A DNA stretch of 64,000 nucleotides from Halobellus captivus (GTDB taxonomy: Archaea > Halobacteriota > Halobacteria > Halobacteriales > Haloferacaceae): assembly GCF_003697845.1 (NCBI RefSeq), contig NZ_RDQE01000004.1, forward strand, positions 186,001 through 250,000, given 5' to 3'. Both the position numbers and the translations under genes were made by a program. This document shows, piece by piece, positions 34,269 through 44,209 of this stretch. The notes beneath the pieces were generated by a model. The model worked only from the letters and a program-made list of their open reading frames with translations, ran no database searches and was not told where the DNA came from. Positions within the stretch are counted from its first letter, which is position 1. Each line of letters starts with the position of its first letter.

Positions 34269-34340
34269 ACGTCCCGGTGTGCGCCCGCGACGGTTAAACC
34301 GACCGAGGCGCTTCGTCGTCGGGAACCCGTCCCCGCAAGT

Positions 34341-34370
34341 CTTATGTACAGATACGTTCATTAGTGTACA
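34341..34370 (+). promoter_or_regulatory. trpC promoter with two TGTACA boxes
   Basis: CTTATGTACA combines a TATA-like element with TGTACA (34345-34350); a second TGTACA lies at 34365-34370. They are 20 bases apart centre to centre, two turns of the helix, and the second ends three bases before the trpC ATG. TGTACA is the TRP-box sequence bound by the TrpY repressor in Methanothermobacter. Placement over the TATA box and transcript start would suit repression. Confidence 0.5.
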
Positions 34371-34373
34371 GTA

Positions 34374-35252
34374 ATGAACGATACGGCGGAGTTGGATCCG
34401 GCGGTACGGTCGATCCTGGCTGCGGCCCGCGATCGAGCGGGTGCGGGCGGACGGGACGACGAAGCGAACGGGCGAGACGACGGGACGGATGGGCGAGACG
34501 ACGAGGTGGCCGGAGGGGCCGGGAGGGACCGCGTCGCCGCCGATCCGCGTGACCTCCGCGCGGCCTTCGAGCGCTCGGAGGCCGACGGTCGCGTTCCCGT
34601 GATCGCCGAGGTCAAGCCGACGAGTCCGACCACGGAGGGAACCCGGAAGGACGACCCGGTCGAGCTGGCCGAATCGATGGTCGCCGGCGGCGCGGCCGCG
34701 TTGAGCGTGCTCACCGAGCCGGAGCACTTCGGCGGGAGCACGGAGACGCTCGAGCGCATTCGCGAGGCGGTCGACGTGCCGGTCCTCCGGAAGGACTTCC
34801 TCGTGGCGGAGTCCCAGCTTGACGACGTCGAGAGCGACGTGGTGCTGCTCATCGCCCGGTTCGTCGGCGACGACCTCCCCGAACTGCTCGCGGCCGCCCG
34901 CGACCGCGGCTTCCAGGTCCTCGTGGAGGTCCACGACCGGGAGGAGCTCGCCGCCGCCGTCGACGCGGGCGCGACGACCATCGGCGTGAACAACCGCGAC
35001 CTCGCGAGGCTGGACGTCGACCTCGGGACCTTCGAGTCGGTCGCGCCGGAGGTCCCCGATGACGCCACGCTGATCGCCGAAAGCGGGATCGCGACGCCAG
35101 CGGACGCGCGCCGGATGCGGGCGGCGGGCGCGGACGCGCTGCTCGTCGGGAGCGCGATCATGGACGGCGACGTCGAGGCGAACACGCTGGCGCTGACCCG
35201 GGCGGAAACCGACACCCACTCCACTGACGACGCCCCGGGGACACGTACATGA
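34374..35252 (+). CDS. trpC: indole-3-glycerol-phosphate synthase
   Basis: Fourth step of tryptophan synthesis. 292 residues, a (beta/alpha)8 barrel with [11 protein letters not shown] (catalytic Lys), [51 protein letters not shown], and [16 protein letters not shown] plus ALLVGSAIM for phosphate binding. An Asp/Gly/Arg-rich low-complexity insertion (about residues 24-48) interrupts the N-terminal helix region. The ATG at 34374 follows the double TGTACA promoter directly, giving a leaderless mRNA. The stop overlaps the trpB ATG by four bases. Confidence 0.96.
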
Positions 35253-36553
35253 GCGAGACCGAACCCACGACGACCGACGCGGCCGAGCTCTCGCGTCGCC
35301 CCGGCCGACGGCGCGGCCGCGACGACGGGAAGTTCGGCCGCTACGGCGGCCAGTACGTCCCCGAGGCGCTGATGCCCGCCATCGAGGAGTTGACCGACGC
35401 CTACGAGCGCTACGTCCTGGAGAACGAGGACGGCTTCATGGACGAGTTCCGCGAGCGACTCGCCGACTTCGGCGGCCGGCCGACGCCGCTCCAGCGCGCC
35501 GAGCGGCTCTCCGAGCGTTACGACCGGGAGGTGTACCTCAAACGCGAGGACCTCCTTCACGGCGGCGCACACAAGCTGAACAACGCCCTCGGCCAGGTGC
35601 TGCTCGCGAAGTACATGGGCAAGGAGCGGATCGTCGCGGAGACGGGCGCGGGCCAGCACGGCACCGCGACCGCGATGGCCGCGGCCCACCTCGACGTGCC
35701 CTGTGAGATCTACATGGGCGAGCGCGACATCAACCGCCAGCGCCCCAACGTCTTCCGGATGAAGCTCAACGGCGCGGAGGTGAACCCGGTCACCGCGGGC
35801 CGCGGAACGCTCAAGGAGGCCATCTCCGAGACGATGCGCGACTGGGCGACCACCGTCGAGAACACCCACTACGTGATCGGGTCGGTCGTCGGCCCGCACC
35901 CCTTCCCGGTGATGGTCCGGGACTTCCAGGCGGTCATCTCCGAGGAGGCGCGCGCGCAGTCGATCGAGAAGACGGGCGACCTCCCGACCGACGTGGTCGC
36001 CTGCGCCGGCGGCGGCTCCAACACGATGGGGTCGTTCGCGGCGTTCGTCGACGACGAATCCGTCGCGCTCCACGCGATCGAGGCGGGCGGCTCCACGCTT
36101 GAGGTCGACGAGGAGGCGGGCGTCGCGCCCAACTCCGCGTCGCTCTTCGCCGGCGAGGAGGGCGTGCTCCACGGCGCGCGCACCAAGCTGCTCCAGGACT
36201 CCGACGGCCAGATCATGGAGAGCCACTCGGTCTCCTCCGGGCTCGACTACGCCGGCGTCGGCCCCGAACTCGCGTACCTCGTCGACGAGGGGCGGGTCAC
36301 GCCGGTCGCGGTCGACGACGACGACGCCCTCGAGGGCTTTCACCGCCTCTCGAACACCGAGGGGATCATCCCCGCGCTGGAGACTGCCCACGCGTTCGGC
36401 TACCTCGAGGAGCACGCCGCCGACCTCGGCGAGCGCGTGGTCGTGACCGTCTCCGGCCGCGGCGACAAGGACCTCGACGCCGCCATCGAGGAGACCGACA
36501 AGCGAGACGTCGCGGGTGCACCCGACATGTCGATGTTCACGGGGGGGATCTGA
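35249..36553 (+). CDS. trpB: tryptophan synthase beta subunit
   Basis: 434 residues; PLP enzyme joining indole and serine. The PLP Lys is in [15 protein letters not shown]. Other family marks are [35 protein letters not shown], the phosphate-binding [10 protein letters not shown], and [18 protein letters not shown]. An N-terminal extension of about 25 residues is charged. It overlaps trpC by four bases and precedes trpA by one base, so the synthase subunits are made together. Confidence 0.97.
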
Positions 36554-36554
36554 G

Positions 36555-37409
36555 ATGCCCGCGACCGGCAACAGCGAGGCGCTCGCGGCGGCGTTCGCGG
36601 ACGGTCCCGCCTACGTCCCGTACCTCGCGGTCGGCGACCCTGACTACGACGCCTCGCTCGAGTACGTCGAGGCGCTCGACCGCGGCGGGGCCGACGTCAT
36701 CGAACTGGGACTCCCCTTCTCCGAGCCGATCGCCGAGGGACCGACGATCCAGGGCGCGGTCGTGCGCTCGCTCGAGGGCGGAATGACGCCAGACCGCTTC
36801 TTCGCGTTCGTCGAGGACCTCGACGTCGAGGCGCCGCTCGTGTGTATGACGTACTACAACCTGATCTACCAGTATGGGGACGGCGACGGCCCCCGAGACT
36901 TCGTCGAGAAGGCCGCCGAGGTCGGCTTGGAGGGGTTCGTCGTCCCCGACCTCCCGGCCGAGGAGGCCGACCCGCTGCGGGAGGCCTGCGACGAGTTCGG
37001 GCTCGATCTCGTGTTCATCGTCGCACCGACGACCACGGGCGACCGGCTCGAGCGCATCATGAGCCGGGTCTCGGGGTACGTCTACGTCCAGGCGCGCCTC
37101 GGGACGACCGGCGCGAAGAGCGACGTGGCCGACAGCACGACCGAGAGCCTCGACCGCCTCCGCGAGTACGACGTGCCGAAGGCGGTCGGGTTCGGGATCT
37201 CCACGGGCGAGCACGCCGAACGGATCGTCGCGGGGGGTGCGGACGGGATCATCGTCGGCTCGGCGCTCGTCGACATCGTCGCCGAGGGCGTCGAAGCGGA
37301 CCTGTCGACGGAGGCGGTCGCCGACCGGCTCGAGTCGCTCTCGCGGGAGCTGAAGGCGGGTGCCGAGCGCGGCTACGCGGCGCGGACGGAGGCCGCGGAG
37401 TCGCGCTGA
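36555..37409 (+). CDS. trpA: tryptophan synthase alpha subunit
   Basis: 284 residues; cleaves indole-3-glycerol phosphate and passes indole to TrpB. Motifs: [15 protein letters not shown], the catalytic Glu in [19 protein letters not shown], the catalytic Asp in [13 protein letters not shown], and phosphate contacts in [14 protein letters not shown] and [10 protein letters not shown] start at the ATG at 36555, directly after the trpB TGA. The trpDFEG genes are not in the window. Confidence 0.96.
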
Positions 37410-37566: not shown

Positions 37567-38358
37567 ATGACAGCAGGACTCTCGGCACGACTCGACCGGA
37601 TCTCCACGAACGATCGATACCTCATCGTCCCGATGGACCACGGGATCACCATGGGCGCGGTGAAGGGACTCGTCGACATCGAGTCGACGATAGACGGCGT
37701 CACTCGGGGTGGCGCGGACGCGGTGCTCACCCAGAAGGGGATCGCCCCGCGCGTCCACGACAACAAGAACGGCGCGGGATACATCGTTCACGCCAACGCC
37801 TCGACGACGATCGGTCCCGACGAGCAGGACAAACGCGTCACCGCGAGCGCGGAGGCCGCGGTCCGTGCCGGCGCTGACGCGGTCTCGTTCCACATCAACG
37901 TCGGGTCCGACTACGAACCCGACCAGATCGAGGAGCTGGCCGAGCTCTCCGAGGACGCCTCGCGGCTCGGGCTTCCCGTACTCGCGATGGCGTACGCGCG
38001 CGGCCCCGGCGTCGACAGCACGGATCCCGAGTCGCTCGGCCACGCCGTCCGGCTCGCCGAGGAGCTCGGCGCCGACGTGGTCAAGACCGGCTACTCCGGC
38101 GACGGCGACTCCTTCGGACGCGTCACCGAGTCGACCAGGCTCCCGGTCGTCATCGCCGGCGGCTCGAAGGGAACGGACCGGGAGACCGTCGAGATGGTCC
38201 GCGGCGCGATGGACGGCGACGCCGCCGGCGTCTCGATGGGGCGGTCGATCTTCCAGCACGACGACCCCGCGGGGATCGCGAGCGCGGTGTCCGCGGTCGT
38301 CCACGACGACGCCGACGTGGAGTCGGCGCTCGAAGCCGGCGGCTTCCTCGAGGCCTGA
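37567..38358 (+). CDS. 2-amino-3,7-dideoxy-D-threo-hept-6-ulosonate synthase (class I aldolase family)
   Basis: 263 residues, DhnA-type class I aldolase. YLIVPMDHGITMG and ADVVKTGYSGDG (Schiff-base Lys) are the key motifs, with IAGGSKGTDRETVEMV for phosphate binding. The family also contains fructose-bisphosphate aldolases, but in archaea lacking the usual DAHP synthase this protein starts the alternative shikimate route. Its place directly after trpCBA (157-base gap) supports an aromatic amino acid role. The usual partner, dehydroquinate synthase II, does not follow here. Confidence 0.88.
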   Translation: MTAGLSARLDRISTNDRYLIVPMDHGITMGAVKGLVDIESTIDGVTRGGADAVLTQKGIAPRVHDNKNGAGYIVHANASTTIGPDEQDKRVTASAEAAVRAGADAVSFHINVGSDYEPDQIEELAELSEDASRLGLPVLAMAYARGPGVDSTDPESLGHAVRLAEELGADVVKTGYSGDGDSFGRVTESTRLPVVIAGGSKGTDRETVEMVRGAMDGDAAGVSMGRSIFQHDDPAGIASAVSAVVHDDADVESALEAGGFLEA

Positions 38359-44076: not shown

Positions 44077-44209
44077 TCGCAGTCGTCGGGTAGTCGAAAT
44101 CGGCGGGTAGTCGCGGTCGCGGGTGACCGCAACTGTCGGGTAACACCGACGTCAGCCGGTTTCTCTCGCGTCCACGCGTGTACAAGTGTCCCCGGCACGT
44201 AGCCCGGGT

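Follow-up and report, generated by a model that had tools for sequence, protein, structure and literature searches.

TrpY-family proteins combine an N-terminal helix-turn-helix (HTH) domain with a C-terminal ACT-like domain, and in Methanothermobacter the box that TrpY recognizes is TGTACA, with trpB2 as a further target. The bacterial regulators TrpR and TyrR follow a similar tryptophan-sensing operator logic, although both the protein family and the operator are unrelated. The M. thermautotrophicus protein is a repressor of the trp genes that acts at TRP boxes (PMC6737238). The Thermococcus homologue, which is 42% identical to that of Methanothermobacter, is reported to have no part in trp control (PMC6737238). 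In Thermococcus kodakarensis, control of an archaeal trp operon is likewise known, but it is exerted by a different regulator, Tar (TK0271), an activator of aromatic amino acid operons (PMC6737238). The haloarchaeal branch of TrpY homologues is described in the same source as not examined (PMC6737238). The tryptophan-responsive promoter of the tryptophanase gene, p.tnaA of Hfx. volcanii, is a main inducible promoter of haloarchaeal genetics. Several haloarchaeal p.tnaA sequences have been aligned for regulatory regions (PMC11165654), and the available text of four sources that deal with this promoter names no regulator for it (PMC10448506, PMC5052560, PMC3235422, PMC11165654).

The window, by which we mean the whole stretch of 64,000 nucleotides that was analysed, contains trpC, trpB and trpA followed by a gene of the early aromatic pathway (Table 1; the group is referred to below as trpCBA-aro). 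The function and gene order of the latter point to a counterpart of H. salinarum OE1472F, which is described in one operon with trpCBA (PMC4162585). An earlier note on this DNA had reported two TGTACA hexamers upstream of trpC, at 34345-34350 and 34365-34370, and had proposed that they belong to a TrpY-like circuit. Both are present at these positions, with a start-to-start distance of 20 bp, and the first does overlap the TATA-like element; the second, which had been said to touch the trpC start, in fact ends 3 nt upstream of the ATG (34374-34376). Two further elements, absent from that note, are box 2 (CGTTCA) and candidate box 4 (TGAACG), and the starts of the TGTACA-like boxes proceed in 10-bp steps (34345, 34355, 34365 and, for the candidate, 34375). 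In a matrix scan of the window, the three 10-bp-spaced pairs formed by boxes 1-4 were the top such pairs; the window itself is one of the 81 trpC training rows, whose boxes 3 and 4 were not used as a pair for training.

Table 1. Coordinates of the trpC promoter elements and of the genes downstream, numbered from the first letter of the window.
Feature	Position	Strand	Description and evidence
Conserved trpC promoter block	34334..34376	+	CGCAAGTCTTATG; core promoter, boxes 1-3 and start codon
TRP-like box 1, TGTACA	34345..34350	.	Overlaps TATA-like element
TRP-like box 2, CGTTCA	34355..34360	.	Consensus NGTNCA; between boxes 1 and 3
TRP-like box 3, TGTACA	34365..34370	.	Just upstream of ATG
Candidate box 4, TGAACG	34375..34380	.	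Overlaps start codon
trpC, indole-3-glycerol phosphate synthase	34374..35252	+	NF041303, 412 bits (cut-off 380)
trpB	35249..36553	+	TIGR00263, 574 bits
trpA	36555..37409	+	TIGR00262, 244 bits
2-amino-3,7-dideoxy-D-threo-hept-6-ulosonate synthase	37567..38358	+	Early aromatic pathway, downstream of trpCBA; TIGR01949, 356 bits

The argument that such a pair is unlikely to arise by chance stands for the arrangement, which is unique in the genome, and fails for the single hexamer: TGTACA occurs 16 times in the window versus 1.42 expected from dinucleotide shuffles, and its rarity was discarded as an argument. What carries the case is the pair together with its spacing and conservation.

The conservation was assessed with the best 80 of 421 trpC loci from Halorubrum and other Halobacteria, which together with the window gave 81 promoters. 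A block ending in the trpC start codon was found in all 80 relatives and in the window, with 28-42 of the 42 consensus letters. Each promoter column from -80 to -41 holds 0.01-0.35 bit, and between -40 and +2 a content of at least 1 bit is reached in 35 of 43 columns. As the reading in the earlier note implied, related trpC promoters keep the boxes: an exact TGTACA stands at box 1 in 40 of the 81 promoters, at box 3 in 53 and at both in 28, and if one mismatch is allowed the counts rise to 79 for box 1 and 80 for box 3. Box 2 follows box 1 at exactly +10 and has the consensus NGTNCA, its GTNC core being retained in 79/81 promoters. The mean number of matches to TGTACA (of 6) is 5.46, 4.05, 5.64 and 3.73 at offsets 0, 10, 20 and 30, and at most 2.88 at the remaining offsets scanned from -21 to +35, with the limitation that the rows were aligned via the best match to a consensus, which favours peaks at the boxes. 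The +30 peak, which corresponds to candidate box 4, is the least secure and remains ambiguous because the ATG sets two of its bases.

Similar boxes precede the second tryptophan operon, trpDFEG, which the earlier note had named as another place to look for them. In the host, trpF is the next gene downstream of trpD, and trpD is present in all 33 genomes searched; these yielded 34 rows, one genome having a second copy that gave the worst fit. The first two boxes are within one mismatch of TGTACA in 31/34 rows each, the third in 16/34 and the fourth in 10/34. Mean matches at offsets 0, 10, 30 and 40 are 5.35, 5.50, 4.41 and 3.59 of 6, and no other offset from -9 to +60 exceeds 2.56; these rows were also placed by consensus, which favours the peaks, and the unplaced sequences display the same boxes.

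Both arrangements are specific on the genome scale. TGTACA-N14-TGTACA occurs once in the 3.59-Mb host genome, in the trpC promoter, and TGTACA-N4-TGTACA with up to one mismatch also occurs once, in the trpD promoter. When up to three mismatches were allowed, the triple pattern was found in the host genome at the trpC site, at the trpD start and at two weak sites, compared with two hits for the reversed control. Among the 32 haloarchaeal genomes behind the named loci, there are 44 exact TGTACA pairs with spacers of 4-14 nt, as opposed to 16 for the reversed-pattern control over all spacers. Fourteen of these pairs have a 4-nt spacer (13 of them before trpD), 13 have a 14-nt spacer (all in the trpC block), and the nine other spacers share the remaining 17.

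These observations bear on one alternative, namely that the block is merely a conserved core promoter (BRE, TATA and initiator) with no operator in it. The block does include a TATA-like element and the start codon, which core-promoter constraint alone would conserve. Nevertheless, we find this explanation barely credible, as it would have to accommodate one hexamer repeated at a 10-bp period that extends to offsets 30 and 40 at trpD and recurs upstream of tnaA (see below), and exact pairs of these spacings that are found nowhere else in the host genome.

A TrpY homologue, which the earlier note had suggested searching for, was located in the host by an ACT-domain search. It is a protein of 166 aa (L093:1213-1710) that matches the NCBIfam family TrpY_fam with 230.4 bits (cut-off 180), residues 2-164 covering positions 1-163 of the 163-position profile. 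Its C-terminal part is ACT-like (PF01842, E=1.4e-4), at 22 bits and thus under the 27-bit cut-off, and there was no Pfam HTH match to this protein. The family was found in 292/292 Halobacteria genomes that are at least 90% complete, in 291 of them above the cut-off, with one gene in the host, and above the cut-off in 117 of 119 genomes sampled from the phylum, 22 being haloarchaeal; among the control genomes, one of three matches was below the family cut-off and was ignored. TrpC is equally universal (292/292 haloarchaeal genomes). Since both proteins are universal in the sample, presence and absence cannot tie the factor to the site, and no genome without one of the two proteins could be found in which such a loss might be correlated with loss of the site.

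In the draft host assembly, trpY, trpC and trpD lie on contigs C35, C32 and C11, respectively, so that trpY is not beside the trp operon. TGTACA is absent from the 70-nt region preceding trpY at 31/31 haloarchaeal loci (the 30 best-scoring and the host) and from the 120 nt upstream at five non-haloarchaeal loci, and autoregulation of trpY through such boxes was not seen. In this respect the haloarchaea are unlike Methanothermobacter, where trpY is adjacent to the trp operon and autoregulated. Shared with the trpEGCFBAD system of Methanothermobacter are the TGTACA boxes at trp promoters, a protein of the TrpY family and trp targets.

The box conservation, the trpD boxes and the presence of TrpY support, at the level of sequence, the TrpY-like circuit in haloarchaea that the earlier note had suggested. 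We consider it likely that the boxes constitute a multi-copy operator for the host TrpY-family regulator, which would repress trpCBA-aro and trpDFEG. This reading draws on the observed boxes, their phasing, conservation and genome-wide specificity, the shared arrays and the presence of TrpY; TrpY as the binder, tryptophan as the ligand and repression by occupancy are what we infer. An Lrp/AsnC-family regulator such as LrpA2 could occupy the boxes in place of TrpY, an alternative that appears improbable given that TGTACA is the TrpY site in Methanothermobacter and that similar arrays stand at trp genes of TrpY-bearing non-haloarchaea (see below). In its favour, lrpA2 (OE2776F) of H. salinarum is upregulated 14.9-fold without aromatic amino acids, and the authors put it forward as a regulator of the pathway (PMC4162585).

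With TrpY as the regulator, its units on TGTACA-like boxes one helical turn (10 bp) apart would be arrayed on a single face of the helix, in a row stretching between the TATA element and the start of trpC. Tryptophan-bound TrpY would then exclude TBP/TFB and RNA polymerase and thereby reduce transcription of trpCBA-aro, and the matching array of trpD (0, 10, 30, 40) would reduce transcription of trpDFEG likewise. Published expression data point in two directions. Without aromatic amino acids, early exponential cultures of H. salinarum induced the complete tryptophan branch of seven ORFs (trpCBA, trpD1FE1G1) (PMC4162585), and the induced operons, trpCBA-OE1472F and trpD1FE1G1, are those whose relatives carry the arrays. 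According to a review, tryptophan raised Hfx. volcanii tnaA nearly hundredfold and left all other transcripts unchanged (PMC3235422), a statement that bears on the response of trpC to tryptophan and counts against the operator reading; the explanation would be either a prior repression of the trp genes in the medium used or a weak control. The native trpCBA promoter has also been termed not tightly regulated, with reference to Large 2007 (PMC13147458). The Thermococcus homologue, with no part in trp control (PMC6737238), likewise speaks against the operator reading.

Besides the haloarchaea, 33 other genomes of the phylum were searched for exact pairs, which were present in 15, with 58 pairs in total versus 20 in the control, and absent from 18, the latter weighing against the operator reading. 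A single genome, G341, accounts for 22 of the 58; these mostly have a 9-nt spacer and a common inner sequence and represent a different repeat, whether a dispersed element or an operator. We examined 14 stretches comprising 17 of the 58 pairs, which were picked by spacer or by neighbouring phased boxes and are not a random sample. Five of the 14 lie at the starts of trp genes: trpE (L213 and L214), trpC (L216) and a trpB2-type gene (L208 and L212). The latter two, found in two non-haloarchaeal genomes, parallel the trpB2 target of Methanothermobacter. The TrpE proteins of L213 and L214 score slightly under the NCBIfam TrpE cut-offs and above both Pfam cut-offs. For four of the five genes the longest reading frame extends into the array, which suggests that the true start is likely downstream. 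The TrpY proteins of these five genomes are 40-52% identical to the host TrpY, with the IEIPxT and DRRVVD segments in common. Together with Methanothermobacter, known from the literature, the five arrays place similar boxes and the same regulator family on both sides of the haloarchaea.

Two further stretches may concern transport. At positions 3030-3055 of L209, a non-haloarchaeal locus, a phased triple (TGTACA, AGTACA, TGTACA) stands before the second of two tandem LctP-family permease genes, and this permease may be a transport gene under the control of the same regulator. In L215 (3023-3048), TGTACA-N14-TGTACA precedes a gene for a hydrophobic-looking protein of 256 aa that has no NCBIfam or Pfam match and is possibly a transporter component.

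The tryptophanase gene tnaA is present in 142 of the 292 haloarchaeal genomes and in 42 of 76 genera, and in 0/36 genomes of the genus treated as that of the host, which was taken as Halorubrum from the nearest trpC relatives. Its promoters were scanned with a pair matrix trained exclusively on the trpC and trpD boxes (139 unique pairs, both orientations). From the 142 genomes with a match we drew 30 loci, comprising 14 of genus g6 and 16 others, and 40 further stretches chosen to cover other genera; genus g6 was taken as Haloferax because named Haloferax tnaA loci look alike, and the non-Haloferax set has n=56, L318 being without a recognised start codon. In-frame stops had been suspected in some of the tnaA genes; none were seen in two genes that were re-read, and the suspicion was dropped.

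In all 14 g6 promoters, the best conserved part of the region preceding tnaA contains TGYACA-N4-CGTYCR, 92-93 nt before the ATG, and in 13 of them this is the best-scoring pair. For the 56 non-Haloferax promoters, the best pair score averages 7.46, 7.38 and 5.94 when the centres are 10, 20 and 30 bp apart, whereas the other 22 spacings between 7 and 31 bp give means of 0.37-3.72 (paired tests versus the mean of other spacings, p=8.0e-11, 1.4e-10 and 6.3e-7, with kinship ignored). The promoters of TrpY, used as a control, score 0.05 at 10 bp (n=31). The distance of the best pair to the start codon, taken modulo 10, equals 1, 2 or 3 in 51/56 promoters despite the wide range of distances, and in 25/25 of those scoring at least 8; the Rayleigh statistic (nR2) of the distances is 34.9 at period 10, 17 at 10.5 and 1 at 11. 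Because the distances fall at 1, 2 or 3 modulo 10, the tnaA boxes hold phase with the core promoter across several turns. Single sites are degenerate: only 19 of the first 49 promoters reached p<0.05 versus dinucleotide shuffles, so that the signal lies in the phasing and not in the individual tnaA sites, which are weak. Among the 25 promoters with a score of at least 8, the pair starts 52-111 nt upstream, at 52-63 nt in 14 and at 71-111 nt in 11.

These data suggest an extension of the circuit in which tryptophan-bound TrpY, while repressing the biosynthetic operons, would activate tnaA through phased boxes that precede or abut the core promoter, and would be the regulator of p.tnaA. An activator would be expected at boxes that precede the core promoter and keep phase with it, which is the arrangement in Haloferax. 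Further support comes from Halorubrum lacusprofundi, in which Hfx. p.tnaA works and is inducible by tryptophan (PMC5052560). A response in a genus with no tnaA in the 36 genomes searched would be explained by a trans-acting tryptophan sensor kept for another purpose, and a TrpY kept for trp control fits this description. On the other hand, the spacing statistics ignore phylogeny, the single sites are degenerate as described above, and the 14 best non-Haloferax pairs at 52-63 nt could touch the core promoter. On balance, we give this extension an even chance. It is somewhat unlikely that the factor at tnaA is instead a repressor that tryptophan releases. Without tryptophan, trpY of M. thermautotrophicus is inhibited by its own product (PMC6737238), hence a tryptophan-free bound state exists, and the proximity of the same 14 pairs to the core promoter would suit a repressor; however, the Haloferax sites and the 11 other best sites at 71-111 nt are probably above the TATA element and keep one helical phase, which favours an activator.

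The best reading is that of an old TrpY/TRP-box regulon: with tryptophan bound, TrpY would close the biosynthetic promoters and might in addition activate tnaA, and one tryptophan-sensing switch probably governs trpCBA, trpDFEG and tnaA. In its fullest form, TrpY would be a two-way switch, its phased row shutting off trpCBA-aro and trpDFEG and turning on tnaA as the regulator of p.tnaA, as part of a circuit that goes back to the ancestor shared by the haloarchaea and their relatives in the phylum; we hold this combined view tentatively, at slightly less than an even chance. A circuit of this kind is known from Methanothermobacter; what is new is that the architecture is phased, that the operons are split and that tnaA is probably included. 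Unlike in Methanothermobacter, the haloarchaeal targets are split into trpCBA and trpDFEG and apparently include tnaA, and the 10-bp phasing, quantified here over many genomes, goes beyond the description of that system. Although it carries the same phased boxes, Hfx. volcanii p.tnaA differs from the trp promoters, which would be repressed, in being induced by tryptophan. The haloarchaeal TrpY branch and the regulator of p.tnaA would have the same candidate answer, with the exact bases to mutate. If true, it would provide a ligand-dependent archaeal regulator that represses or activates by the position of phased boxes, a route to an improved p.tnaA and evidence for ancestral tryptophan control in the phylum.

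Finally, two minor features of the window should be noted. The N-terminal part of trpC (approximately 34446-34523) contains a low-complexity stretch of repeated GRDD units. The next-best 10-bp-spaced pair after those of the trpC promoter, CGTCCACGCGTGTACA at 44169-44184 (15.3 bits), may be a chance occurrence; it lies approximately 25-40 nt upstream of a likely ATG (44210) of an ORF that by eye resembles a VOC/dioxygenase protein.
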